A DNA stretch of 55,916 nt from Nostoc linckia FACHB-104 (GTDB lineage: Bacteria; Cyanobacteriota; Cyanobacteriia; Cyanobacteriales; Nostocaceae). The DNA lies in the NCBI RefSeq assembly GCF_014696615.1, contig NZ_JACJQJ010000053.1, forward strand, positions 1-55,916. The letters are read 5' to 3'. A program made the translations under genes and the position numbers. The notes under the pieces were generated by a model. The model did not search any database. It worked only from the letters and a program-made list of their open reading frames with translations, and was not told the DNA's origin. Positions 35,837-50,234 of the stretch are shown here, one piece after another; positions within the stretch are counted from its first letter, which is position 1, and each line of letters begins with the position of its first letter.

Positions 35837-36658
35837 TTATTCATCCGTATTTTGAGCGATCGCGACTGCTAGGTCTTGATAACGGCGTGGATCGCCTTCT
35901 GCAAACACTAACCGCTCTTGTCCTTTGCGTCCATAAAGCTCTTCCATAATCTTCTGCCAGTCCATAGAAGACAAGGGGGAAGGGCGATTGTCTATATGTT
36001 GGGTTTGAGTGGTAGCTGTTGCTGTCTGCAGTTCTTGCTGTGCCATTAAGACACGGGCGCGTACTGGCCAACTCTCCTCTTTAGCTGCAATTTGCTCAAA
36101 ATGTGACAGAATTTGCGATCGCCAGTCTGGATGACTCACAGCAATTGCGTTGGCAAGACACTGTAAGCCGACGATGGCTGAATAGCGTACCACCCACTCT
36201 TCATCTTCTTGAGCTACAAATAGCAAGGCTTCCATTGCTTCTGCTTGGGCAATTTCTAGCAGTTCCTCTGGGAACCAGTGCCATTTCATCATTCCAAGCC
36301 CCTTAGCAGCTGCCCGCCGAACACTCAGGGCAAAGTCAGCGGTGGCTGCGCCTAACAAGGTGACTAATCCTCGAGGATCGCCAATTCCTGCTAGGGTACG
36401 GATTGCCCAAGATCTGGCTGTGTAGTTATGCATATCGAGCAGTTCCAACAAAGATGGAACTGCGGGTTCGCCAATTTGGATTAGCCCATCGACAGCTGCA
36501 ACTGCTGCACCTGGATTGTTATAGCTCAAAGTAGCAATTAGGGTAGGAATAGCTCCTTCTAAACGAGCTGCTGCCAGGTTTTTAACAGCTTCTTGCAAAA
36601 GGACAGAAGAATTTGCGTCTTCTACTGCACGAATTAGAGTATTGAGGGAATCAGGCAT
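35837..36658 (-). CDS. cpcF: Phycocyanobilin lyase subunit CpcF
   Basis: 273 residues, HEAT-like helical repeat protein (SLLELLDMHNYTARSWAIRTLAGIGDPRGL and VRRAAAKGLG are typical). With CpcE it forms the lyase that attaches phycocyanobilin to Cys84 of the alpha-phycocyanin subunit. It follows cpcE by 51 bp, at the end of the cpc1 operon. This pair is the only alpha-type lyase in the window, so it may serve both cpcA genes. Confidence 0.92.
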   Translation of the reverse strand: MPDSLNTLIRAVEDANSSVLLQEAVKNLAAARLEGAIPTLIATLSYNNPGAAVAAVDGLIQIGEPAVPSLLELLDMHNYTARSWAIRTLAGIGDPRGLVTLLGAATADFALSVRRAAAKGLGMMKWHWFPEELLEIAQAEAMEALLFVAQEDEEWVVRYSAIVGLQCLANAIAVSHPDWRSQILSHFEQIAAKEESWPVRARVLMAQQELQTATATTQTQHIDNRPSPLSSMDWQKIMEELYGRKGQERLVFAEGDPRRYQDLAVAIAQNTDE

Positions 36659-36709
36659 GGGGAAGAAGAGAAGCGATAAGTTCTACCTTTTCCATTTTCG
36701 CTCTTTCTG

Positions 36710-37540
36710 CTACAGTAATGCATCCATTAGTTGCATGACTTTAATTGCACCAGGAGATAATTCATGTGGCGTTGTCGGTTGCAATTGCTTTTCAAGTAAA
36801 CCTTTGAGAGATATTAACTTCAAGCTATTTTCTGCTAGGGTATCAGCGATCGCTTCGGCTGCTGGCAAATATCCAATCGCCCCCAAATCGGAGAGTACTG
36901 CCCGACGTAGTTGCAAATCATCCTGAGCAAGTGCCTGTACTAACCGATCGCCATACTCGTTGTAGACTTCATTCGCTTGGGAGGTTAGCTGATACATTGC
37001 CCTAGCTGCGGCATACTGAATCCGAGGAACCGGGTGATCTAAAAATCCTTGAATCAGGTGACTTGTATCGCTTGCCCCCAATGTTCCCAATGCCTCTATA
37101 ATGGCATCGAAGGGTTGGGTTAGTTGGGGTGGTTCTGGTGCTGGTAGGGTTCCCGGAATTTGATCATTGAGTAACTCGATCAGCCTGGGAATACTGGATG
37201 AGTCGCCTAACATTTCCAGAGATTGGGCTGCAGCTTCACGCACATAGAAATCAGAACATTCCAGCGCTTTAATTAATGCGGGAACGGCTCGTTTTTCTCC
37301 TAATTTTCCTAATGCTCTGGCTGCATTGCGCCGCAGGGGATAGCCACCAGCATTAGTGCGATCGTCTTCGTCTTCTAATGCTGTAATCAAGACATCAATG
37401 GCTTCTGGAGCATCAACTCGAAACCGCCCTAACCACCAAGCCGCATACACGCGCAATCCTAAATCTTCGCCTTGGAGATTAGCGATCGCTTGTTCTACAG
37501 TTAATTGATTATCATCCTGGATATTAGCTGCGTTTTCCAC
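36710..37540 (-). CDS. cpcE: Phycocyanobilin lyase subunit CpcE
   Basis: 276 residues from a GTG at 37540 (family length 276). HEAT/armadillo-like repeats (LRVYAAWWLGRFRVDAPEAID, RRNAARALGKLGEKRAVPALI, VREAAAQSLEMLGDSS). Partner of CpcF in attaching bilin to the alpha subunit. A longer frame (to TTG 37582) would start inside the intergenic hairpin and is less likely. Expression is probably lower than cpcB1A1 because the hairpin at 37583-37640 precedes it. Confidence 0.93.
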   Translation of the reverse strand: MENAANIQDDNQLTVEQAIANLQGEDLGLRVYAAWWLGRFRVDAPEAIDVLITALEDEDDRTNAGGYPLRRNAARALGKLGEKRAVPALIKALECSDFYVREAAAQSLEMLGDSSSIPRLIELLNDQIPGTLPAPEPPQLTQPFDAIIEALGTLGASDTSHLIQGFLDHPVPRIQYAAARAMYQLTSQANEVYNEYGDRLVQALAQDDLQLRRAVLSDLGAIGYLPAAEAIADTLAENSLKLISLKGLLEKQLQPTTPHELSPGAIKVMQLMDALL

Positions 37541-37582
37541 TTTCTGTTCCTGTTCCCTCTGACAAATGCCTATACATAACAA

Positions 37583-37640
37583 TGCCCGGAGAGATATACA
37601 ATCACTAACTCCTGTCAGTCATTGTATACCCCTCCGGGCA
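37583..37640 (-). terminator. Attenuating hairpin between cpcA1 and cpcE
   Basis: GCCCGGAG (37584-37591) pairs with CTCCGGGC (37632-37639), and inside it ATACAAT with ATTGTAT extends the stem. No strong T-run follows on the minus strand, so partial read-through or RNA stabilisation is more likely than full stop. Such structures explain abundant cpcBA and low cpcEF mRNA. Confidence 0.8.
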
Positions 37641-37651
37641 AAACCATCTTA

Positions 37652-38140
37652 CTAGCTTAAAGCGTTGATGGCGTAGTCGATGTAGGAGTTTGCTTCAACA
37701 GCAGGGTCACCACTCAAACCGTGGTTAGCTTTGACATATTTCAAAGCTTCAATATACCAGCTGGGAGAAAGTTCAAATGTGCGGTTGATTTCAGCAATAC
37801 CGCTGATTAGGTAATCATCCAATGGGCCTGTACCACCTACAACTAGGCAGTAGGTAACCATGCGGAGGTAGTAACCGATGTCACGAACGCACTTATCTTT
37901 ACCAGTTTGACTAGAAGCGTAGTTTGGGCCAGCAGTGCTGGTGGTGTAGGGATATTTGCTGTAAACAGCATTAGCAGCACCAGTAGCCAAACTAGAAGCT
38001 TTTTCGCTCAATGCTTTTGCAGCTGTTAAGCTTGCTTGTGCTTGGCGAAAACGACCAAATGCGGTTTGGATTTCGGTAGAGCTCAGGAAGCGTCCTTGGG
38101 AATCAGCAGCAGCTACTGCTTCGGTCAAAGGGGTTTTCAT
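37652..38140 (-). CDS. cpcA1: Phycocyanin alpha subunit, constitutive type
   Basis: 162 residues. Phycobilisome rod antenna protein; bilin attached at C84 ([11 protein letters not shown]). All typical segments present ([25 protein letters not shown]). It follows cpcB1 by 96 bp and precedes cpcE-cpcF. It differs from cpcA2 by about 25 residues, mostly at 35-80. No L-box was found upstream of this operon; the name cpc1 follows Fremyella usage. Confidence 0.97.
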
Positions 38141-38236
38141 TTTAGATTTTCTCCCAAATAATCTTGTTTGATGAAATAGCTTTTAGCAATCGTTTCAGCT
38201 ATCTGAAGGTGAGCAAAAAATCGATCAATTGCTCTC

Positions 38237-38755
38237 TTAACCAACTGCAGAAGCAGCTCTATCGAAATAGCCAGCAACTTCAGACATCAGGCTGGAGCAG
38301 TCACCGCGGGTAACACCATTGGTATCGCCAGCGATCGCTAGTGCAGCATCTTTCATCTTGCTAACGCCAGTTGCTACGGAACCGCCAGGAACGCCTAGTG
38401 CTTGGTAGGTTTCACGCAAACCGTTGAGGCAGCGATCGTCTAAAATGCTGGCATCACCTGTGAAGATAGCGTAGGTAACATAGCGCAAAATGATTTCCAT
38501 GTCGCGTAAGCAAGCAGCCATACGACGGTTGGTGTAAGCATTACCACCAGGTGCAATCAACTGGGGTTGTTCTGCAAACAATGCGCGTGCTGCATCAGCA
38601 ACGATTGAGGAAGAGTTACCGGTAATGCGGTTTACAACGTCCATGCGCTTGTTGCCATCAGCAACCATAGCGCTTAGAGCATCGATTTGAGAACCACTCA
38701 GATATTCACCACGTGCGTCAGCTTGGGAGACTACTTTTGCAAATGCGTCAAACAT
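38237..38755 (-). CDS. cpcB1: Phycocyanin beta subunit, constitutive type
   Basis: 172 residues. Two bilin cysteines: C82 (AACLRD) and C153 (RGDCSSL); N72 in GGNAYTNRR is the usual methylated Asn. First gene of cpcB1-A1-E-F. It is close to cpcB2, differing mainly at the N-terminal 30 and at scattered positions. Product forms the alpha-beta monomers of rods. Confidence 0.97.
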
Positions 38756-39569
38756 ACACTCAATATCCTAATTTGTTTAGTCGAGTATGGCTTGGATTAG
38801 GTTACAACCCAGTTTGATTCGGCTTGGCAACAAAGCTGCCCTAATATCCCGATCAACTTAAAGCAGTAGGTTGAATAACTGCTAAACCTTTCCGATTTTT
38901 CCCCTGAGGAAACTTGGAAGATTCTTAATTTTTTTTAACAATTGAAGAGCCTGACTCATCCCAGATGAATAGCTAACCTGTCATCTGTTGTGTACAGTTC
39001 TTCTTTGTTGTTCATACTATGTTGTTTATACTATATCGTTGGATCGATTTTATATTACAAATTGTCAAGCAGATAATTCTATGGCTGGAAAGACTGATTA
39101 AATCAGCTTTTTGTAATGATTATAGGGAATATATTTCTTTATTTACTGGTTAATCTGCACATAGCCATGTTTAACTCCTGCTTACCGCAGCATAACCAGA
39201 TATCCTTGATTTAAAGCCCAGTCAAAAATGATAGAAGATATGAAGAAATATTAAGAGTCTGAGTTTTTTCTTTACATAACTGGGACAGTTTTGTTTGGTT
39301 AATTGAGTTCGATTGTTCCAAGAGGAAGCAGAATCTGATCGCCAACCCCGTTCAATAGCTAAGTGACGAAATGCGATCGCAATTCCTGAGTTAGCTAACA
39401 CAACAGATCCATAAATGACTAGTACAGCGCGGCTTAAATAAAGCTACCCTTTAAAACAGTCAAAAACCTTGATATATGAACCTTTTGACTTTTGACTTCC
39501 GCGTAGCGATACTAGGGACAAATGACAGCCGTCACCAGTTAGCTTTAATTGCACCGTCCTACATCCCAA
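38756..39569 (-). promoter_or_regulatory. Upstream region of cpcB1
   Basis: An 814-bp gap without a gene, expected to hold the cpc1 promoter and long 5' leader. At 39010-39037 two 14-bp units (GTTCATACTATGTT, GTTTATACTATATC) stand in tandem, about 255-280 bp before the start; on the minus strand they give two TATAGTAT/CATAGTAT -10-like sites. No TTGCACA pair (L-box) is present, in contrast to cpcB2 and pcyA. Confidence 0.45.
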
Positions 39570-39776
39570 TTAAGATTTAGTAGCTGTCCAATCTTTCTTT
39601 AGCAATGCCAAAAAAGTAGCAATTCCTTTAGAAAATCCTTGTGGATCTGGTTGAACATACTCGGGAAACTCTTCATAATGTCGCCACGGCTCAGATGAAT
39701 TATGCCGCAGATATAATACTCGCTCGTTCCCTTCTAATTTCCAGAGCATTTGACCGCCAGTTGGTATCTCAGTCAT
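39570..39776 (-). CDS. Small conserved cyanobacterial protein
   Basis: 68 residues from the ATG at 39776, with AGAGGAG upstream. Sequence pattern: GGQMLWKLEGNERVLYLRHNSSEPWRHYEEFPEY, then helical IATFLALLKKDW. Not recognised by name. It lies between cpcD2 and the cpcB1 promoter, same strand, but after the cpc2 terminator, so it has its own transcription. Confidence 0.65.
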   Translation of the reverse strand: MTEIPTGGQMLWKLEGNERVLYLRHNSSEPWRHYEEFPEYVQPDPQGFSKGIATFLALLKKDWTATKS

Positions 39777-40052
39777 GGCTTTCTCCTCTTTTGCAAACAA
39801 ATACACTCAAAAGCAGTTTGCGCTTGCTCAATTTTGCCAGCCTAAATATTAAATCTTGAAAACCTTAGTAAGTCGGTGGAAATCACCCCAACTATGTTAA
39901 GAAACGTAAATAGGTTTGAAATCCTTAGCAATGACAAATGACTAAGGACATGGATCTATTATGACTGATACCAATTTGAAGAATGATCGCTACGTATCTG
40001 TCGCATGATTTTTTCAAAATGGTATGACATAAATGAGTGCTGAGTTGTGAAT

Positions 40053-40090
40053 AAAAAAGGGCGTGGAAAAGTAAGCTTTTCCACGCCCTT
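40053..40090 (-). terminator. Terminator of the cpc2 operon
   Basis: Perfect 15-bp stem (AAGGGCGTGGAAAAG at 40057-40071, CTTTTCCACGCCCTT at 40076-40090) with a 4-nt loop and a T6 run on the minus strand (40053-40058). The strongest terminator in the window. The rest of the 39777-40111 gap shows nothing recognisable. Confidence 0.95.
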
Positions 40091-40111
40091 AGATATCATA
40101 TTTAAGTACTG

Positions 40112-40369
40112 TCAACTTTCCGATGCAGCTTCAGTGGTACTGTCACTTGCAGAACGGATGTTAACAATTTTGCCGCCTAAGCGAGTGATGCGACGCATTT
40201 CTTCATTCATGCGGCTATAGGGGACTTGAATCTGAATCGTGCTGCTATTGCGAATCTGATAACGATTGTTATCAGTTTGCTCGTTCTGACGCAATCCTTC
40301 TACTTCATAAACAAAGACGCGATTGTCTGAGTTTGAACTTGACCCTCTTGTCAATGCAGACCCCAACAT
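40112..40369 (-). CDS. cpcD2: Phycobilisome rod-capping linker CpcD2
   Basis: 85 residues. CpcD-like domain: RVFVYEVEGLRQNEQTDN, VPYSRMNEEMRRITRLGGKIVNI. It caps the distal end of phycocyanin rods and limits their length. Last gene of cpcB2A2H2I2D2, 14 bp after cpcI2, just before the terminator. Confidence 0.93.
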   Translation of the reverse strand: MLGSALTRGSSSNSDNRVFVYEVEGLRQNEQTDNNRYQIRNSSTIQIQVPYSRMNEEMRRITRLGGKIVNIRSASDSTTEAASES

Positions 40370-40383
40370 AATGGTTCTATCTC

Positions 40384-41256
40384 CTATTGTGCAATGGTGA
40401 TGCTGGCAACCTTACCACCCAGCTTATTAATTTGCTGAAGGGTATTGGATAGCTGTTCGTAGGGGACAATGAACTCTTTGTTGCTACGACGAACTTTAGG
40501 ATATCTAGGCAAGCTGATACCGGTAACTTCGATTCTGTAGAGACGTGGAGTTGATCCTTGAGAGGATCTGCCAAAGGTGCGGCTGGGTGTAGTCCCTTGT
40601 TTTGCAGGTAGATAAGACCAACCTTGGCTGCTACCAGAAGGAGCAATAATTGCAGAGGCGCTATTTTTAGCTAAGTCAGCAGCTAAACGAGAAGCGCTAC
40701 CTGCTAGCTGAGAGCGATCGCTATTAGCATAGCCACGATAAAGGCGGAATAAGCGAGTGAAACCAACGGTTCTTTGACCAACGCCTGTGGTCACAAAGTC
40801 GCGGTAGTAGGGAACGATCGCATCACCAAAGGAAGCATCATATTCAGCAGAGTCGATATAAGAATCGATATCTGCGTCAAAACCTTGATTTTGGTAGCGA
40901 TCGAGATGCTCAATTACTTCCGACTCATCGTAGGGAGCACGTCCCAACAAATGTTTGAAGTTTAATTCAATTACCCGAGTTTGAAAATGAGGGTAAAGAA
41001 ACTTGGTTTTATATAGTTCGGATTTAGCTACTGCGCGGACAAAATCTTTGACGCTCAGTTTCCCATTGGTCAACAACGACTCTAAGCTGATGAGACGTTC
41101 TGACTGCATCAGATAGTCGTTGCCTAATACCTGACGATAAACTGCTTGAATCACAAGCTTGGCATCTTCTGGTGTCCAGTTTGGACGCAGTTCAACAGGA
41201 CTTGTTTGGTCAAAAGCCGTAGTTCCCAAACGAGATGCTGCGGATGTAATTGGCAC
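40384..41256 (-). CDS. cpcI2: Phycocyanin-associated rod linker CpcI2
   Basis: 290 residues. N-terminal Pfam00427-type linker domain (about 15-180; [36 protein letters not shown]) and C-terminal CpcD-like domain (about 235-290; [30 protein letters not shown]). A Ser/Gly/Thr-rich linker joins them. It holds phycocyanin hexamers in the inducible rods. The name follows Fremyella cpc2 gene order and could be exchanged with cpcH2. Confidence 0.9.
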
Positions 41257-41301
41257 GAATAGCTCTCCTTGTAGACTTTTTTTGTTGCAAGATTGATCAG
41301 T

Positions 41302-42111
41302 TTAAGCAGGAGAAATATTTACCACCCGGCTACCCCGCTGATTCAGTCTTTGCAGGGTGGGAGAAAGTTGGTCATAAGTTACCAAAAACTCTCTGATACT
41401 ACGGCGGATTTGGGGAGTCCGTCCGCTATCTGATTGCATAACTCTCACTCGGTAAAGCTTTCCGCGATCGCCCGCGACATTACCAGCTAACCCTTTACCA
41501 AAGGTAGGGGTTTGAATAGGAGTAGCTAAATTCAGAGCAAGATTCTGGGTTAACCACGCAGATTTGTTTTTACCTTGGGCGCGATCGCTGTTGGCATATC
41601 CTCGGTAGAGCTGAAACATCCGGCTAAAACCGACTGTTTTTTGTCCCGTTTGAGTCGAAAATCCCCTATAATATGGAACTATCGATTCTCCAAAGTTTTC
41701 TTGATATTCAACTGAATCAATATAAGAATTGATTTCTGCCTCGTACCCTTTCTGAATATAAAGATCTACGTGGTAAGCAATTTCTGCTTCATCGTAGGGC
41801 GCACGACCTAGCAGATGCTTGTAGTTCAATTCAATGAACCGGACTTGAGGTGTAGAGTAAAAAAACTTTTGGCGATACAGTTCAGATTGTGCTAGTGTCC
41901 GCACAAAATCTCGAACACTAATGTTGCCTTGCTGTAACAGCGATTCTGCACTTGTGATGTGTTCACTTTGCATCAAGTGGTCATTACCAAACACTTGACG
42001 ATAGGCAGCATTAATCACTGCTTTTACATCATCATTTGACCGCAACTCTGTAGGAGCAATGTTGGCAAATGGCTCAAATCCTAACTGACTGGCTGCCAGA
42101 GAACTAGTCAT
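41302..42111 (-). CDS. cpcH2: Phycocyanin-associated rod linker CpcH2
   Basis: 269 residues from the ATG at 42111, preceded by AAGGAG 7 bases earlier (seven extra codons upstream are rejected). Same two-domain design as CpcI2: linker domain ([35 protein letters not shown]) and C-terminal CpcD-like domain ([30 protein letters not shown]). Shorter joining segment than CpcI2. Probably the core-distal or core-proximal partner in inducible phycocyanin rods. Confidence 0.9.
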
Positions 42112-42136
42112 GACCGATCTCCTTAATTTCAATCAG

Positions 42137-42216
42137 AAAAAAACATGCCCAGAACCCCTTAAAACTGCCCATGCTAGAAGAGAATTAGCATTCACAGCCT
42201 TGAGTTGTTCTGGGCA
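42137..42216 (-). terminator. Attenuating terminator between cpcA2 and cpcH2
   Basis: TGCCCAGAAC (42146-42155) pairs with GTTCTGGGCA (42207-42216); on the minus strand a T7 run (42137-42143) follows. The long loop could form an inner stem. This looks like an intrinsic terminator with partial read-through, giving many cpcB2A2 transcripts and fewer linker transcripts. Confidence 0.85.
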
Positions 42217-42227
42217 AAAGGAAACCT

Positions 42228-42716
42228 CTAGCTTAGAGCGTTGATGGCATAGTCAATGTAAGAGTTTGCTTCTACAGCAGGATCGCCACTTAAGCCATGA
42301 TTTGCTTTAACGTACTTGAGAGCTTCAACGTACCAGCTAGGAGACAAATCGAAGGTGCGGTTGATTTCTGCCAAACCACCGATTAAGTAGTCATCCAAAG
42401 GACCGGTACCACCAGCAATTAGACAGTAGGTAACGATGCGGATGTAGTAACCGATGTCGCGTACGCACTTGTCTTTACCGCGCTGGTCAGCAGCGAAGTT
42501 AGCACCTTGCATTTGGGTGGTGTAGGGGAACTTTTGGTAAACTGCGTTAGCAGCACCAGAAGCCAAGTTGTTAGCTTTGCTGCTTAATGCTTTAGCTGCA
42601 TCTAAGCTAGCAGCAGCTTGACGGAAGCGACCAAATGCAACTTGAAGTTCTGTGGAGCTGAGAAACCGACCTTGAGAATCTGCGGTAGCTACGGCTTCGG
42701 TTAAAGGTGTTTTCAT
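42228..42716 (-). CDS. cpcA2: Phycocyanin alpha subunit, red-light inducible type
   Basis: 162 residues; bilin C84 in [11 protein letters not shown]. Differs from cpcA1 by substitutions such as [16 protein letters not shown] to [16 protein letters not shown]. Follows cpcB2 by 68 bp. Lyase genes are absent in this operon; CpcE/CpcF from the cpc1 operon presumably serve it. Confidence 0.97.
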
Positions 42717-42784
42717 GCTGATATTCTCTCAACAAATATGTAAAGGTGTGCGTCCGAAAGAAGAAATAATTAAGTAGCGATGTC

Positions 42785-43303
42785 TTAGCCTACTGCACCA
42801 GCAGCTTTATCGAAGTAGCTGCCTAATTCAGCCATTAAGGAGCTACAGTCACCACGGGTAACACCATTGGGGTCGTTTGCAATTGCGATCGCAGCTTCTT
42901 TCATCTTTTGAACACCAGCTGCTACGGAAGCGCCAGGAACGCCCAGTGCTTGGTATGTTTCACGCAAGCCGTTTAAGCAGCGATCGTCTAAAACGCTAGC
43001 ATCACCTGCAAATACTGCGTAGGTTACATAGCGTAAGATGATTTCCATGTCGCGTAAGCAAGCAGCCATACGACGGTTGGTGTAAGCATTACCACCAGGT
43101 GCAATCAACTGGGGTTGTTCTGCAAACAACGCACGTGCTGCGTTAGCAACGATGGTGGATGCATTGCCGGTAATGCGGTTTACAACATCCATCCGCTTGG
43201 AACCAGCAGCGACCATATCTTTTAATGCATCGATTTCTGCGTCGCTGACGTAAGAGCCTCTTGTATCAGCTTGGGAAACTACTTTGGTAAAAGCGTCAAG
43301 CAT
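42785..43303 (-). CDS. cpcB2: Phycocyanin beta subunit, red-light inducible type
   Basis: 172 residues with C82 and C153 bilin sites and N72. First gene of the cpc2 operon (B2-A2-H2-I2-D2). A perfect L-box lies 375 bp upstream (43678-43695), the site which in Fremyella lets phosphorylated RcaC activate cpc2 in red light. Distinguished from cpcB1 by [18 protein letters not shown] at the N-terminus. Confidence 0.97.
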
Positions 43304-43677
43304 TCCAGCATCTCCTAAAAATATTACTATGCTGTGGATTCAAATTTGGTTCAAAAGCTGATTCTTGATTGGCATTGAGCAGAGTTATTGATTTTAGAGA
43401 TGTTCCGCCATGACAAACCAGGCAAACAGTGACCAACAAGTTTAACTTGCTTGGCAATTGGAGGTAATTTACCCCCAATCTGTTAGCTAGTTCCAATTTA
43501 CTAACGGTACAGCTATAAATTAATACTGCTAATATCCACGACAACCAATTTCTTAAGGCCCACAAGCCGAAATTAATAAAATGGCTGCCTATCAGTTTTT
43601 CAGTTGCTGAACCTTCTCCATCGAGGGCAGAGTGTTCAGCGGTTTTTTGAACCTGAAAATGATTAAAGCAATCCGTT

Positions 43678-43695
43678 TGTGCAAATTTTGTGCAA
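43678..43695 (-). promoter_or_regulatory. L-box upstream of cpcB2
   Basis: On the minus strand TTGCACA-AAAT-TTGCACA, the exact direct repeat with 4-nt spacing known as the RcaC binding site for red-light activation of cpc2 in Fremyella diplosiphon. The match is seen directly; RcaC is not in the window. Confidence 0.9.
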
Positions 43696-43804
43696 ATTCA
43701 AATGTGTTGCCAGATAATTGGTTAAAAAATATTAAGCGAATGCTGAAACCCTTTCATAGCAAGGATTGTTTATATTTTCGTTTTGTCTTTAGACTTAAAT
43801 TATA

Positions 43805-43914
43805 GTTACATTTAGTTACATTTAGACACATTTTCAGGAAGTCAAAACTTTATTACTCGCAAAATTAAATTTCTGAACTCAATTCTTACAATTCGTTACA
43901 TTCGGTTACATTGA
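43805..43914. promoter_or_regulatory. Two pairs of 10-bp direct repeats (GTTACATT)
   Basis: GTTACATTTA occurs twice in tandem at 43805-43824, and GTTACATTCG plus GTTACATTGA at 43895-43914. The units are one helical turn long and the pairs are 90 bp apart (nine turns). This suggests a protein that binds one face of the DNA. It lies 110-240 bp upstream of the cpc2 L-box. The remaining 43304-44228 gap holds the long cpc2 leader and a weak open frame (43911-44207) that I do not accept as a gene. Confidence 0.45.
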
Positions 43915-44170
43915 GATATACTCCTAGACAAACAAGTACACATACTGTCTTTGCCAGGAAAAGTTGTGATATGAGAGGTAGACAGGAAGCGTTCGTCTAT
44001 CCAATCCTGAAGGAAAACAATAACCTCAGCCATTTCCTCAGGCTAGATTCCTTAAGGAGTTCCAAGGAAATAAATATTCCGTCGCTAGAGGAAACAGAGG
44101 GAGAAAAACTATCATGTGCATCTTCGCCCTCAAAATTGGATAATTTAATTTCTGGAAATCCCCAAACAGC

Positions 44171-44203
44171 AAAAATTACCAGGATTGCAATTGCCTTCCT
44201 GGT
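44171..44203 (-). terminator. Terminator of pcyA
   Basis: ACCAGGA (44178-44184) pairs with TCCTGGT (44197-44203); on the minus strand TAATTTTTGC follows the stem (44171-44177). It separates pcyA from the cpc2 operon that follows on the same strand. Confidence 0.75.
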
Positions 44204-44228
44204 TTGACAGATTTCATTGAATTTAACT

Positions 44229-44972
44229 TTAAGCTACATAGTCAAAAAGCATAGTAGTCATGTAGCGATCTGCCCATTCTTTACCAAAAGATTTTTCCAG
44301 AACGCGGCGAGTTTTATCATTCTGCTGCTGCTTTGTACAGTAATTGCGTTGTCCAGCCAAAACTTTAGAGATGTCAAGATTGGATGTTAAAGGTGTCTCT
44401 GATGCAGCAATCTGACAATGAATCGTTAAATATTCGCGAACGCGATTGTGAAACTTATCTTCTTCTTGAGTATTGTCTGGGCGCACAAACAGGCAAAATT
44501 GCGAGAAGATATCACCCCAAGGAGGTAAAGTCCGTGGTTGGGAAAACTCAATTTCAGGTAAAGCAGACAGATGCTGATTGTAGCGTGGCGGTAGACTGCG
44601 ATCGCTACTAATGGGAGACAAATCCGCGATCGCTGCACTAATCAACCCACCTTTCCCGCCTACCAAATCTGTACCAAACATGGGAATAGGGTATTCAGGA
44701 TTGGGGAACATCACACAGTGCAGAATATCTAAACCATTCCCAACCTGCGCCAATTCTAGATGCAGTTTGCGAAATTGCGGAGCCTGATAGCAATGATTTT
44801 CAATGATCAGCCGTTCGCCTTCCAAATGTCCCTCGACATAGCCTAAACCTTCTGGGACAGAGTAAGGGGAGATATCCAGGTATTTTTGCCAAATTTCTTC
44901 AATCGAATCCGCCAACCTGTGGATTAGGGGATGCTGGCGATTTCTCAACGACGCTTCCATAGACTTCAACAT
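44229..44972 (-). CDS. pcyA: Phycocyanobilin:ferredoxin oxidoreductase
   Basis: 247 residues. Reduces biliverdin to phycocyanobilin in two ferredoxin-dependent steps, the pigment for all cpc products. Catalytic residues are conserved: E73 (HLELAQ), H85 (ILHCVMFP) and D102 (MFGTDLVGG), equivalent to E76, H88 and D105 of Synechocystis. An L-box lies 46 bp upstream (45018-45035), so co-regulation with cpc2 by red light is expected. The ATG at 44972 is kept; an ATG four codons later is an alternative. Confidence 0.96.
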   Translation of the reverse strand: MLKSMEASLRNRQHPLIHRLADSIEEIWQKYLDISPYSVPEGLGYVEGHLEGERLIIENHCYQAPQFRKLHLELAQVGNGLDILHCVMFPNPEYPIPMFGTDLVGGKGGLISAAIADLSPISSDRSLPPRYNQHLSALPEIEFSQPRTLPPWGDIFSQFCLFVRPDNTQEEDKFHNRVREYLTIHCQIAASETPLTSNLDISKVLAGQRNYCTKQQQNDKTRRVLEKSFGKEWADRYMTTMLFDYVA

Positions 44973-45017
44973 ACGCTTCTCTTTGAGTATAGGATTAACC
45001 TACCTTGGCGTATAGCC

Positions 45018-45035
45018 TGTGCAATAGCTGTGCAA
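45018..45035 (-). promoter_or_regulatory. L-box upstream of pcyA
   Basis: Minus strand TTGCACA-GCTA-TTGCACA, the same direct repeat and spacing as at cpcB2, 46 bp before the pcyA start. In Fremyella an RcaC-bound L-box controls pcyA in red light. Confidence 0.9.
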
Positions 45036-45141
45036 TTTGCAGATTGGGGGATGGGGTTAAACAATTTGGGATTTTAGATTAAGCCCATACCGTAGATTTA
45101 GCTACTCCCATTGAGAATTATAGATTTGGCAGAAATAAATT

Positions 45142-45450
45142 TTACTCGGTTTCCAGACTTCTTTGTTTCCAATAATTTGGTTTGCGCTTACTATGTGCGA
45201 TCGCAATTACCCAAATTACTTCTTCCAACTCTGTATAAAAAATTATATAGGGAAAACGTTTAATAGTATAACGACGTATTCCTGCAATTTTGTATGGCGT
45301 TCCTAAATTAGGATTTTGCTGAATTTTCAGAACAACTTTTTCCACTTCAGATAGTAAATCTAGTCCCAAGCCTACTTTTTGAGCTTCATAGTAAGCTATT
45401 GCAGCATCAAGCTCTTTTCTAGCTTCTGTGTGGATAATAATAAACTTCAC
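45142..45450 (-). CDS. RelE/ParE-type toxin
   Basis: 102 residues, starting at GTG (GTGA overlaps the antitoxin stop). Pattern: EARKELDAAIAYYEAQKVGLGLDLLSEVEKVVLKIQQNPNLGTPYKIAGIRRYTIKRFPYIIFYTELEEVIWVIAIAHSKRKPNYW, typical of ParE/RelE superfamily toxins (mRNA interferase or gyrase inhibitor). Coupled to the upstream antitoxin gene. Confidence 0.88.
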   Translation of the reverse strand: MKFIIIHTEARKELDAAIAYYEAQKVGLGLDLLSEVEKVVLKIQQNPNLGTPYKIAGIRRYTIKRFPYIIFYTELEEVIWVIAIAHSKRKPNYWKQRSLETE

Positions 45451-45677
45451 GAATACTTTTCTCGTAATTCAGAAAATACTTGAGATGATGGTTCTCCAAT
45501 AGCTGTTTTGCAATTAATGTCTTGCAACCTTTGGTTTAATTCTGTATCCCAAGCAGTTTCTAGATTATCATCTATATCTTCATCTAGAGAATGAATTAAA
45601 AAGTAGGCAATCTCAGCACGTTCTTTTGCAGAAAGTTGAGAAAGTTCGAGTTTAAGTTTTTCTGCAGTTTCACTCAT
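45447..45677 (-). CDS. Antitoxin of the addiction-module type (TIGR02574-like)
   Basis: 76 residues from the ATG at 45677. The N-terminal segment ETAEKLKLELSQLSAKERAEIAYFLIHSLDE and the central AWDTELNQRLQDI are typical of the putative addiction module component family paired with RelE/ParE toxins. It overlaps the toxin start by 4 bases, so translation is coupled. Six more upstream codons are open but unlikely. Confidence 0.85.
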   Translation of the reverse strand: MSETAEKLKLELSQLSAKERAEIAYFLIHSLDEDIDDNLETAWDTELNQRLQDINCKTAIGEPSSQVFSELREKYS

Positions 45678-45756
45678 ACTTTGGAGTCTTCCCAAGGATT
45701 ATAAAATCGGCTCAATGATCTGATCTTAGCTGCTTTACTCATGATTTAGGGGAGTT

Positions 45757-45951
45757 TTAAGCATTCAAAGCTTCCAACATGATATTGGCAGCCTCTAGCG
45801 CATCATAGGGAGACCAAACAGAATATGATGCACCGGATTTTATCAGATTATTTTCTTCATTTGCTAGCTTGGCAGCTAAAAGTTGAATAACCTGGAGTTT
45901 ATCTAAGCGATTAAGTTTGCGTAATTGTTCTACTAATTCAGTAGATACCAT
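45757..45951 (-). CDS. Small antitoxin-like or hypothetical protein
   Basis: 64 residues from the ATG at 45951. Pattern: STELVEQLRKLNRLDKLQVIQLLAAKLANEEN, SYSVWSPYDALEAANIMLEALN. Similar small proteins accompany PIN or RelE toxins in cyanobacteria, but no toxin gene follows this one. It lies upstream of the TA pair on the same strand. Possibly an orphan antitoxin. Confidence 0.6.
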   Translation of the reverse strand: MVSTELVEQLRKLNRLDKLQVIQLLAAKLANEENNLIKSGASYSVWSPYDALEAANIMLEALNA

Positions 45952-46061
45952 TGTTAAGTAAGGGTGTTTATTGATTGATATCCATTTTAAGAATAACCTG
46001 TACAAGCATAATTTCGCTTGGCTTGTAATGATCTGAAAGTGTGATTCCTATAGCTGGCTAC

Positions 46062-46556: not shown

Positions 46557-49500
46557 TTATACTGTCACACCTTCCAACTCTTCATCTGTCAACTCATACA
46601 ATTGGCGTAACTTATCTAACTTATCTTTATCCGCTTGCCAAAAACCCCGCCCATGCGCCTCTAACATCCTGCCTACTATATTCCGAAAGGCTTCTGGATT
46701 TGCCTTGCGTAACTTCTCCGCCATTTCTGCATCTAGGGCGTAAGTATCTGCCGCTTGGTCATATACCCAATCATCAGTAAAATCCGCAGTACCGCCCCAA
46801 CCAATTAACGCCGTCATGCGCTGAGAGATTTCAAACGCACCACCAGAACCTTGATTAGCCATTGCTTGCGCCCATTTGGGATTTACTAACTTCGTGCGGT
46901 ACTCCATCCGCAGTAAATCATCTAAGTTGCGGGGTGTGGTGTCTTTCGAGAAACTTTCCACAAAACTGGTTGTAATTTTCTTACCGCGCTGTTTTTCTGC
47001 GGCTTTCTTTAACCCACCAGTATTGGCGTAATACTCCTGAATATCGGTAATGCCATATTCTACCGAATCAATTTCTTGGACAATGCGATCGCTTGTTTTC
47101 AATAAAGTATTTAATACTTCCGGCCTAGCTTGACCTTTATCTTGTCTCCCATAGCTGAAAACGTTGCGACTTTGCCAAGTATTACCTAACTCTTCACCAG
47201 ATTCCCAATTACCATCAACAACTTGGTCATTTACCAAAGAACCAAAATCTCCCGCCGGGTTAGAAAATAATCTTGCAGAGACATTTTCCACACCTTGCGC
47301 CTTTAAAGCTAAAGCGTGTTTTCTAATAAAATTCTCTGCTTCCGATTCCTCAGCATCAGCAGCCCGTTGAAATAAATCATCTAATAATTCGATGATATTC
47401 ACAAAACTATCGCGGAAAATACCCGAGAGATTTCCTAACACATCAATCCGGGGATGTCCCACTTCAGCTAAAGGTTTTAACTCATAACGAACAATTCTCC
47501 CCGTTCCCTCCTTCACTGGTTCAGCACCGACTAATTCTAATAAAATACCCAACGATTCACCCTTAGTTTTAATCGCATCTAAACCCCATAACATTACCGC
47601 CACAGTTTCGGGATATTTGCCATGTTCTTGTAAATGCTGGGCGATAATTTTTTGAGCAATTTCCCTACCTCTTTCATAAGCCGCAGGTGAAGGCATTCTA
47701 TAAGGATCTAAAGCATGAATATTTCTACCAGTAGGTAACACACCAGGGCCATCTCTTAATAAATCACCACCAGGCGCAGGTGGAATATATTCCCCATTCA
47801 AACCCCTTAATAAATTCGTCAACTCATCCGTAGATTGCATTAATAAATTTCGGATTTGTGCTTCTGCACTTTTTTCCGGTTCTTCTCCAAAATAAGCCTC
47901 TAAATACGCCGCCAATTTTTCCTCATCCGGTTCCTCACCCAAAGTATGTAAACCAGAAGAAAATAATCGAGTTTCTAAAACCTGTAAATACTCATATAAC
48001 TTCACCAAATAGTCATCAAAAACATGGGCGCTAAACATCCGCATATTTTCATAACTAAAAGCAATCCCCAACTTTTTCGCATCTTCTAACGGACAATCTG
48101 CCTCTAAACCAGTGTCCACAATTTTCTGACAAATAGCTTCCTTCAAGGCGTAATTCTTTTGCGGGTCTTCCCGATACTCAGAAATTAAATCTCTTAGCGC
48201 CAACAATTCCTTATATAAACCAGCACGACCATAAGGCGGGACATTATGGGAAATTAACACCCCATAACCGCGACGCTTTGCCAAAATAGATTCCGAAGGA
48301 TTATTCGCCGCATATATATATAGATTGGGGATATCTCCTAACAGAATATCCGACCAAGAATAACCTGTATTACCTAACGGAGAACCAGGTAACCATTCCA
48401 CAGTTCCATGCATTCCAAAATGCACCACAGCATCAGCTTGAAACTCATTTTGTAACCATTTATAAAAAGCCGCATATTGAGGATGGGGAGTTAAATCTCG
48501 TTCAAACATTAAACGCATCGGGTCACCTTGTAAACCCAAAGGTGGCTGTACACCTATCCAGATATTTCCTAACTGTACGCCCCCAATTTGAAACTCATCA
48601 CCATAAGTTTTAATTCCTGTTCCAGTAAGAGATTTCCATTGTTTTTCAATACGAGAAATGCGGAGATAGCCTAACCATTTTTCCAGAGTCCGAACATTAA
48701 CAGTATTAACCGCAGATGAACGCCGATGCACGCCGATATCTATCTGCGTTAATCCGCGTCCATCTGCGGTTTTAATCTCTTCATCCGCTTCCTTCACCCA
48801 GCGAATTAATTCTTCCCCATCATCAGGTAAATCTCCAACTGCATAGCCTTGTTTTTTCAGCGCATCTAAAAACTTCAACAAACTGCGCGGCACATTTAAT
48901 AAAGCAGCCGTTCCCACAGCACCATAACCCGGAGGAAACCCATATAAAATAACGGCAATTTTCCGTTGCGATGCAGGTTTTTGCCGTAAATTAATCCAGC
49001 TTTTGACTCTACCAATTAATCGCTGTACCCGTTCAGGAACTAAATAGATATCTTCCCCTACCAAACCACCAAGGGGAACAGTATCAATCGCCCCATCTAA
49101 TTCAGGTAAAGCGTACAACACCACACTTTGCAAACCACCAATACCTTGGCGCGTCCAAGAATAAATATCTTGAATTAATAATGGTGCTGCAACAAAATAA
49201 GGTACATTTTTCGCTGTCAAAATACGTTTAGCAACTTCTACCTGTCGCCCTGCTTCCATTGAACCAGCCGGGCCACCAACTAAAGGAAAACCAATTGTAG
49301 AGACTATCGCATCCACTTCCACTGCTTCTTTGGAAAGCGATAGCGTTGCAATATTGCCTATTTGTCTTTGCTGAATTTCATAATCGGTTGTCATCCAATC
49401 TCTGACAGCCACATGTCCTTCGACACCATTGATAAAAATCGGTAAAGGAATTAACCCAGCAGCTTCAAAACTGCGAATTAATTGGGGAATATATTGTTGT

Positions 49501-50234
49501 TTTGTAATAACGTGTTTTCTGTACAGTAAAATCCCAACAACTGGATTGTTAACCTTAAATTTCTGCTGATACCATTCCAAATACGCCTTTGGTGATTCAA
49601 AAAATCCTGGATAATCTGGGTGTAATAACCCCATATTTGGAGTTTCTACAGGCGCAGGAATATCGCCAACTTTTAAGCCTAAATATTTTTCCGCTATTGT
49701 CCAAAATAAAGAAGCAACATTTTCAGGGCCGCCAGCATTCCAATAACCATAAATAATTAACCAGTTGCGTAAATCTTGCACTTTCTGCACTGGCACATAT
49801 TTGAGTAATTTCGGCCCTACTTTTAAAAAGCTAATATAACCAGCGAGTTTATCTTCTTCTCTGCCGTTACTAAATTTATCCAGAATAAATTTTACTGGCT
49901 TGGGCATACCTTTAGGTTTATCGCCAATGGCAAAATCGCCCAGCTTGGTTAAACTCATCAATTCCAAAGCCGACTCGAACACTAAGCGGATAGGAATTTG
50001 AGAAATGCGATCGCGCAACCACAAAACCTGGTCATAATCAAATAGCAAGCTGCCAAAAAATACCTCAGCGTCTTGGAGTGCTGCTTCTACTTCCTGGCGC
50101 TTAGTGGTAATATCGCGATCGCTAAATACTCGAATGTCCAACTCAGAACAACGAGAGTTAGCTAAAAAAGCTGCTTTTCTGTACAAGTCAGCGTTAAAGG
50201 ATTCAAACCCAGCAATCAAGACGATGCGTTTCAT
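46557..50234 (-). CDS. Magnesium chelatase H subunit, short-form paralogue
   Basis: 1225 residues, CobN/Mg-chelatase family. Conserved blocks: FGMHGTVEWLPGSPLGNTGYSWSDILLGDIPN, RRGYGVLISHNVPPYGRAGLY, and near the C-terminus LLRMEYRTKLVNPKWAQAMANQGSGGAFEISQRM. It inserts Mg2+ into protoporphyrin IX with subunits D and I. Standard cyanobacterial ChlH is about 1330 residues and begins differently; this one starts MKRIVLIAGFESFNADLY, so it is likely a second, shorter BchH/ChlH copy. CobN (cobalt) is the alternative but no cobN or chlI/chlD genes are near. Confidence 0.85.
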   Translation of the reverse strand: MKRIVLIAGFESFNADLYRKAAFLANSRCSELDIRVFSDRDITTKRQEVEAALQDAEVFFGSLLFDYDQVLWLRDRISQIPIRLVFESALELMSLTKLGDFAIGDKPKGMPKPVKFILDKFSNGREEDKLAGYISFLKVGPKLLKYVPVQKVQDLRNWLIIYGYWNAGGPENVASLFWTIAEKYLGLKVGDIPAPVETPNMGLLHPDYPGFFESPKAYLEWYQQKFKVNNPVVGILLYRKHVITKQQYIPQLIRSFEAAGLIPLPIFINGVEGHVAVRDWMTTDYEIQQRQIGNIATLSLSKEAVEVDAIVSTIGFPLVGGPAGSMEAGRQVEVAKRILTAKNVPYFVAAPLLIQDIYSWTRQGIGGLQSVVLYALPELDGAIDTVPLGGLVGEDIYLVPERVQRLIGRVKSWINLRQKPASQRKIAVILYGFPPGYGAVGTAALLNVPRSLLKFLDALKKQGYAVGDLPDDGEELIRWVKEADEEIKTADGRGLTQIDIGVHRRSSAVNTVNVRTLEKWLGYLRISRIEKQWKSLTGTGIKTYGDEFQIGGVQLGNIWIGVQPPLGLQGDPMRLMFERDLTPHPQYAAFYKWLQNEFQADAVVHFGMHGTVEWLPGSPLGNTGYSWSDILLGDIPNLYIYAANNPSESILAKRRGYGVLISHNVPPYGRAGLYKELLALRDLISEYREDPQKNYALKEAICQKIVDTGLEADCPLEDAKKLGIAFSYENMRMFSAHVFDDYLVKLYEYLQVLETRLFSSGLHTLGEEPDEEKLAAYLEAYFGEEPEKSAEAQIRNLLMQSTDELTNLLRGLNGEYIPPAPGGDLLRDGPGVLPTGRNIHALDPYRMPSPAAYERGREIAQKIIAQHLQEHGKYPETVAVMLWGLDAIKTKGESLGILLELVGAEPVKEGTGRIVRYELKPLAEVGHPRIDVLGNLSGIFRDSFVNIIELLDDLFQRAADAEESEAENFIRKHALALKAQGVENVSARLFSNPAGDFGSLVNDQVVDGNWESGEELGNTWQSRNVFSYGRQDKGQARPEVLNTLLKTSDRIVQEIDSVEYGITDIQEYYANTGGLKKAAEKQRGKKITTSFVESFSKDTTPRNLDDLLRMEYRTKLVNPKWAQAMANQGSGGAFEISQRMTALIGWGGTADFTDDWVYDQAADTYALDAEMAEKLRKANPEAFRNIVGRMLEAHGRGFWQADKDKLDKLRQLYELTDEELEGVTV

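Follow-up and report, generated by a model that had tools for sequence, protein, structure and literature searches.

Genes and L-boxes of the pcyA-cpc2 locus

The window (the whole stretch of 55,916 nucleotides that we analyzed, from Nostoc linckia FACHB-104) contains pcyA, the only gene for phycocyanobilin:ferredoxin oxidoreductase that we found in the genome, followed on the same strand by the cpc2 and cpc1 operons (Table 1). Upstream of pcyA there is a pair of genes that read as a RelE/ParE-like toxin-antitoxin system (45142-45695, minus strand) and then a 1225-aa gene that reads as magnesium chelatase H-like (46557-50234, minus strand), which would be a tetrapyrrole neighbor of pcyA. A megablast comparison of positions 36000-46000 to plasmids gave partial matches only, in three records.

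Table 1. Features of the pcyA-cpc2 region and related genes elsewhere in the genome
Feature	Location	Strand	Remarks
L-box, pcyA promoter	45018..45035	-	TTGCACAGCTATTGCACA; 0 mismatches; kept in relatives
-10-like hexamer CAAGGT, pcyA (putative)	45002..45007	-	10 bp downstream of L-box
pcyA	44229..44972	-	247 aa
HLR1 (RpaB-type), distal	43895..43912	+	exact; 199 bp upstream of cpc2 L-box
HLR1-like	43885..43902	+	1 mismatch; overlaps distal HLR1
HLR1 (RpaB-type), proximal	43805..43822	+	exact; 109 bp upstream of cpc2 L-box
L-box, cpcB2 promoter	43678..43695	-	TTGCACAAAATTTGCACA; 0 mismatches; kept in relatives
-10-like hexamer TTTAAT, cpc2 (putative)	43662..43667	-	10 bp downstream of L-box
cpc2 mRNA leader (predicted)	43304..43655	-	~352 nt; putative start
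Leader helix, 5' strand	43645..43653	-	GGTTCAAAA
Leader helix, 3' strand	43348..43356	-	TTTTGAACC; ends 44 nt before start codon
Possible hairpin CAGCAT/ATGCTG	43306..43334	-	at AGGAG ribosome-binding site; alignment columns 354-384
cpcB2	42785..43303	-	first gene of cpc2 operon
cpc2 operon, remainder	40112..42716	-	named by reading and by order conserved in relatives
cpcA2	42228-42716	-	cpc2 operon
Rod-linker gene	41302-42132	-	cpc2 operon
Rod-linker gene	40384-41256	-	cpc2 operon
cpcD-like	40112-40369	-	cpc2 operon
cpc1 operon	35837..38755	-	without L-box
cpcB1	38237-38755	-	cpc1 operon
cpcA1	37652-38140	-	cpc1 operon
cpcE	36710-37582	-	cpc1 operon; named by reading
cpcF-like	35837-36658	-	cpc1 operon; named by reading
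RcaE	L119:10901-13018, contig C136		705 aa; PAS-GAF-PAS-HisKA-HATPase; GAF region matches solved RcaE chains
RcaF-like receiver	overlaps rcaE end, contig C136		129 aa; REC only; RcaF identity from position
RcaC candidate	contig C154		657 aa; REC-OmpR-Hpt-REC; from architecture and neighborhood in other genomes

We defined the L-box as TTGCACA-N4-TTGCACA, so that the half-sites are spaced by 11 bp. As the original prediction had it, exact copies of this motif lie on the minus strand upstream of both pcyA and cpcB2, and cpcB1 has none: no match in the 1356-bp stretch that precedes cpcB1 has fewer than four mismatches. The strong contrast between the two box-to-start distances also holds. The original prediction gave these as 46 and 375 bp; there are 45 nt between the box and the start codon of pcyA (ATG at 44972) and 374 nt between the box and that of cpcB2 (ATG at 43303).

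We considered whether the motif might occur here by chance. If up to three mismatches are allowed, then the window contains six L-box-like sites, versus 8.5 expected, and the four besides the exact pair have three mismatches each. This total is not above chance, so only the exactness of the pair counts. Across the genome (9,388,111 bases in 181 contigs), these two are the only exact L-boxes, and both are at antenna or pigment genes; a second-order Markov model built from the window predicts 0.16 exact copies genome-wide and 0.001 within the window itself. A reversed control pattern had no genomic matches with up to one mismatch in either the forward or the reverse orientation. Another eight L-boxes in the genome have one mismatch. 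Chance would suffice for those, which need no special cause, and weaker matches are therefore not trustworthy on their own; as an account of the exact pair, chance has a negligible probability and is already refuted by the conservation of the boxes across families (see below). One of the one-mismatch forms, TTGGACAAAACTTGCACA, is present in three copies (contigs C37, C124, and C134) and is perhaps part of a repeated element.

Rca proteins and phycoerythrin genes in the genome

The original prediction had named the absence of RcaC or RcaE from the genome as a result that would speak against it. We found RcaE and an RcaF-like receiver, both encoded on contig C136, and a candidate for RcaC on a different contig. 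The GAF region of RcaE is identical to PDB entry 8k9o at 184 of 188 residues, and its second match, 7ckv, is the best one that carries a name, RcaE. RcaC is composed of a REC domain, an OmpR-type DNA-binding domain, an Hpt domain, and another REC domain. The genome encodes at least six proteins with the REC-OmpR-Hpt arrangement. We scanned six of them for domains: two REC stretches were reported for the candidate and three for each of the other five. (In addition to the six scanned, the search found a 1740-aa frame on contig C173 as a seventh relative.) In at least 14 genomes among those that we searched, a relative of the candidate is encoded within 2.5 kb of the RcaE relative.

Contig C136 also contains genes for phycoerythrin (PE). 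Pfam identified three PE-type rod linkers in the place of cpeC, cpeD, and cpeE, along with cpeS and cpeT, and we assigned cpeBA from similarity and reading. Two more bilin reductases on this contig, with 24 and 30% identity to PcyA, are presumably PebA and PebB. RcaE, the RcaF-like receiver, and the PE genes all have open reading frames in this genome.

The prediction had also proposed a search for cpeC. Besides the PE-type linker in the cpeC position, we found an L-box in the reverse orientation, with one mismatch, 255 bp upstream of it. Across eight loci that we examined, all six that hold cpeC have the reversed L-box, with one mismatch, at a distance of 255-257 bp; these six represent five distinct genomes (L195 and L012 are one). 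Near pebAB, our list for the genome has no L-box with one mismatch or less. Between the reversed L-box and cpeC lies an inverted repeat, TCAAGATTTACAAATCTTGA, which is identical in five of the six aligned loci and has one change in L035; it might be the site of another regulator.

Conservation of the L-boxes and association with RcaE

Among the best 80 of 101 pcyA loci, 26 have an L-box with up to two mismatches within 200 bp of the start of pcyA. All of these boxes are in the forward orientation, and they are 23-77 bp away. Similarly, 26 of the 29 loci that also held cpcB have an L-box with up to two mismatches in the 1200 bp upstream of it. Thus, the boxes are kept upstream of orthologous pcyA and cpcB genes beyond the genus and across families. 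In a survey of 291 genomes from the order, we identified exact L-boxes in 30 genomes (39 sites listed), versus one match to the reversed control pattern in all 291. When we examined 29 of the surveyed loci with boxes, cpcB was downstream in 15, and none of 12 query genes was beside the box in the other 14.

The L-box of pcyA tracks RcaE: in a set of 49 genomes, the box is present in 24 of the 31 genomes with RcaE and in 1 of the 18 without it. (RcaE was scored as present at 700 bits or above, or at 540 bits or above with at least 57% identity; the set derives from 50 of the 80 loci, all except L011, and the table was compiled by hand, with record titles used to assign loci to genomes.) Fisher's test gives a value of 8e-7, which overstates the independence of the observations because the genomes are related. 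Seven of the 49 genomes have a box at pcyA or cpcB without RcaE above the cutoff, and in two genomes with RcaE, no box was seen at the loci examined. These counts of any box include L060 as boxed from its letters, though no cpcB was found there; no other count is affected.

Within the genus, both RcaE and CpeA have matches in the window's genome and in G001-G004, and neither has matches in G005-G007. G007 (locus L180) nevertheless keeps RcaC (98%) and has boxes at both cpc2 (exact) and pcyA (one mismatch), so the L-box alone is no proof of a working red-light switch. G007 is also a natural test of what the L-box does without its sensor. One might argue from this genome, and from the abundance of REC-OmpR-Hpt proteins in the window's genome, that the boxes are RcaC-type sites whose switch is not, or not only, red/green: another OmpR-class protein of this type might read them, or they might serve the basal expression of pcyA and cpc2. 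We consider this unlikely, as the pcyA box follows the presence of RcaE over the 49 genomes and the genes for the sensor, the RcaF-like receiver, and phycoerythrin are open reading frames here.

We also considered a third member of the regulon. In front of a gene for a 750-aa Cph2-like photoreceptor, a TATAAT sequence is closely followed by a reversed L-box (L128:4980-4997, plus strand, contig C93; also L134, L136, and L141). The box is exact in G003, G004, and G007 and has one mismatch in the window's genome. We rejected this candidate for three reasons: the promoter around the box is also conserved among these four genomes; four distant orthologs of similar length (L146-L149) have at least four mismatches; and G007 has the box without a match to RcaE. 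G004 has a further exact box (L143), with a one-mismatch counterpart in the window's genome (L129); both fall within a 125-aa reading frame and seem fortuitous.

Promoter geometry at pcyA and cpc2

At both promoters, a -10-like hexamer begins 10 bp downstream of the L-box. The promoters of cpcB with L-boxes follow the pattern box-N6-TTG(C/T)-TTTAAT-CA (29 sequences, 27 of them distinct), and those of pcyA follow box-N5-T-N2-G-N-CA-N2-GT (23 sequences, 21 distinct), with exceptions in both cases. For 43 distinct cpcB promoters, the fit to TATAAT peaks at 10 bp, with a mean of 4.63 of 6 positions, which is the highest of 30 offsets. The cpc2-type hexamer has T at position 6 in all 43, and just 1 of the 43 has A at position 2 as well. 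For pcyA, the evidence for the hexamer is of another kind: A at position 2 is combined with T at position 6 in 26 of 28 distinct promoters at the 10-bp offset (all except L013 and L039), versus 16 of 28 at the next-best offset, but the overall fit to TATAAT is just 2.43 at 10 bp, which is worse than at other offsets (3.11 at 21 bp). The 28 promoters include loci whose boxes have two mismatches (L024, L037, L039, L054, L057, and L058), which are absent from the pattern set; G002 and G004 stand in for L009 and L010. A scan for sigma-70 consensus promoters reported neither the pcyA nor the cpc2 promoter, which neither supports nor excludes promoters that depend on an activator. A direct-repeat box that is 10 bp upstream of a weak -10 element is the arrangement of PhoB-type activators.

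Because both boxes are 10 bp before a -10-like hexamer, the distances from box to start codon would differ because the leaders differ. From the positions of the hexamers, we infer that the pcyA leader is about 23 nt long and the cpc2 leader about 350 nt. The long cpc2 leader that had been predicted from the box position is thus supported by a conserved hexamer at the same distance from both boxes. Also, the box, the 10-bp spacing, and the -10-like hexamer are conserved together, so searches for CA3 promoters could use the combination as a sharper pattern than the motif alone.

Another explanation for the locus is that a single long transcript, started at the pcyA L-box, covers both pcyA and cpc2, with the second box as a minor internal promoter. 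The two are on the same strand, both are boxed, and only 533 bp separate the pcyA stop codon from the cpc2 box. On the other hand, the cpc2 box and its promoter core are kept in loci where pcyA is not directly upstream, and the gap that separates pcyA from this box ranges between about 105 and 570 bp. In addition, an alignment of five members of the genus has a hairpin and T-rich sequence just after pcyA (a terminator scan did not list the hairpin). We therefore consider a single transcript to be very unlikely, and we favor two promoters, each activated at its own L-box.

HLR1 elements upstream of the cpc2 box

We searched the window for HLR1, using the consensus given in the available portion of PMC11633204, (G/T)TTACA(T/A)(T/A)NN(G/T)TTACA(T/A)(T/A). 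With up to one mismatch allowed, there are four sites in the window, three of which are upstream of the cpc2 box, versus 0.35 expected. G002, G003, G004, and G007 have an exact proximal HLR1 at an unchanged distance. The distal HLR1 is less conserved: only G007 has an exact copy, those of G002 and G004 each have one mismatch, and just the overlapping one-mismatch element is left in G003. Among 17 gaps between pcyA and cpc2, five have HLR1 with up to one mismatch (the window and the four genomes just mentioned), three have a two-mismatch HLR1 only, and nine, including that of G001, have none.

In the parts of PMC11633204 that we drew on, RpaB is described as activating phycocyanin genes in low light from sites some 50-100 nt ahead of the start. 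The HLR1 sites in the window are further upstream than this. The arrangement resembles that system in having the HLR1 consensus upstream of a cpcB promoter; the difference is that here the sites lie upstream of an L-box and would be joined to a color switch. These sites suggest that light intensity, via RpaB, acts on cpc2 too. A literature search for HLR1 together with Fremyella found nothing among the leading matches. The distal HLR1 is followed on the plus strand by TATACT, so this site could instead serve an unlisted plus-strand transcript.

The predicted leader of cpc2

The predicted cpc2 leader has a folding z score of -3.83 (100 shuffles). In an alignment of 12 leaders (two of which, G001 and L016, are from the same genome), every row has GGTTCAAA at the 5' end paired with TTTGAACC close to the 3' end, with hardly any variation; the covariation term is small (-1.84), and the consensus energy is -28.4, versus -103.2 for the single sequences. 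The possible hairpin at the ribosome-binding site hardly varies either and has no support from covariation.

We then used a wider set of 44 cpcB leaders with L-boxes, which we assigned by hand to five groups. For each leader, we chose as the partner strand the part of a 57-nt window at the 3' end that forms the best duplex with the first 16 nt. Over the whole set, this 5' segment pairs better with its own 3' window than with any of the three controls. In the group that includes our locus, the 5' segment pairs with its own 3' window at -11.8 kcal/mol, versus -6.8 with the 3' windows of other groups, -7.4 with sequence from elsewhere in the leader, and -5.5 with shuffled sequence. When partners were permuted, the observed mean was reached in 0 of 5,000 trials, a test that ignores relatedness. 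Between groups there are compensatory changes; for example, one pair is U-A in 21 leaders and C-G in 16, and a second position of the helix is G-C in 20 leaders, U-A in 4, and A-U in 2. In a group of 15 leaders, the effect is weak (-7.0 versus -5.6 to -5.9 in the controls), and L020 and L223 are among those with few or no pairs of the helix left. Rfam identified no family in the cpc2 leader at E of 1 or less; elsewhere in the region searched (37000-46000), it gave two microRNA matches that are far below the cutoffs.

Given these comparisons, the cpc2 leader probably has a conserved RNA structure. We also propose, at slightly less than even odds, that the leader of about 350 nt is a cis-acting RNA element in its own right, whose 5' end is tied by a long-range helix to the segment 25-50 nt before the start codon in L-box cpcB messages of several families, with compensatory changes that keep the pairing. 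The role of such an element would be to shield the 5' end against decay or to control translation, and the HLR1 sites would bring in light intensity. If this is true, then the leader adds a posttranscriptional layer to chromatic acclimation, and the helix, if real, would be a new handle on the regulation of one of the strongest messages in cyanobacteria.

Comparison to known chromatic acclimation systems

The best-matching system is the type III (CA3) acclimation of Fremyella diplosiphon (Tolypothrix sp. PCC 7601), which shares the L-boxes at pcyA and cpc2, the proteins RcaE, RcaF, and RcaC, and the order of cpc2 and then cpc1. Fremyella also has a reversed L-box at cpeC, as we see here. The window's genome is from another species, with 4 of 188 RcaE residues different. 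Among the genomes that we compared, G003 (same genus, 10.1 Mb) is 188/188 identical to 8k9o across the GAF region of RcaE, and its 162 residues matched to 7ckv differ at the first two alone. G003 has two exact L-boxes, one 45 bp before pcyA and the other 377 bp before cpcB2, and its layout is as in the window. Thus, G003 is very probably F. diplosiphon or a member of its species, in which case the window's genome would be from a sister species. Another difference concerns the sensor genes: here, rcaEF and cpeC share a contig, with about 2.7 kb between rcaEF and the cpeC L-box, but in G002 and G003, there is no cpeC in the 8.0-8.5 kb around RcaE.

In the sections of PMC8256508 available to us, which cite Li et al. 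2008, RcaC in its phosphorylated form is stated to bind the L-box and to be an activator of pcyA and cpc2. Because this activation is already described there, our finding is right but known in kind. Scheme 1 of the same article presents RcaC and L-box activation of pcyA and cpc2 in Synechococcus sp. PCC 7335 as well; there, a reversed L-box represses pebAB, whereas here, the reversed box is at cpeC. The part of PMC9415938 that we used lists RcaE for Calothrix brevissima NIES-22, a relative that is represented among our loci as L012.

A model for red-light control of pcyA and cpc2

We propose, with a probability of about 0.88, that the locus is the red-light branch of the Rca (CA3) regulon in a close relative of F. 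diplosiphon, in which RcaC and the L-boxes would coactivate pcyA and a cpc2 operon with a long structured leader. This agrees with the original prediction that pcyA and cpc2 form a single red-light regulon: RcaE, an RcaF-like receiver, and an RcaC candidate are found, the boxes are conserved, and the pcyA box tracks RcaE.

By analogy to the known system (as outlined in the excerpted text of PMC8256508 and from general knowledge), RcaE would phosphorylate RcaF in red light, and RcaF would pass the phosphate to RcaC. At each L-box, phosphorylated RcaC would occupy both half-sites and, with a poor -10 element 10 bp downstream, would recruit RNA polymerase as OmpR/PhoB-class activators do; the spacing is observed at both promoters, and the mechanism is our interpretation. 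The genes for inducible phycocyanin (cpc2) and for phycocyanobilin synthesis (pcyA) would be switched on together, with transcripts that start at the sites proposed above, and the reversed L-box at cpeC would act oppositely on phycoerythrin. The cpc2 leader would probably be closed by its 5' end, which pairs just upstream of the ribosome-binding site, with a role in the stability or the translation of the message. Pigment supply and antenna protein thus seem to be set up for joint control by light color in a second species. The wiring is already known; the parts worth following are the structure of the leader and the combination of HLR1 with the L-box.

Genomes with two copies of pcyA

Among the best 80 of 101 pcyA loci, 13 genomes are represented by two copies of pcyA (for instance, L011/L015, L012/L016, L029/L053, and L028/L056). 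Both copies have an L-box in none of these genomes, no box was seen in 3 (one of the six promoters in these three, L026, was unreadable, as the match starts at base 5 of the locus), and exactly one copy has a box in 10. The window's genome has the L-box copy only, so all of its phycocyanobilin would come from a gene that is activated by red light. RcaE itself needs phycocyanobilin made by PcyA, and a single L-box-controlled pcyA therefore poses a loop: the sensor would depend on the product of a gene that it controls. We infer that red-activated pcyA, with some basal expression, supplies the phycocyanobilin of both RcaE and the constitutive antenna.
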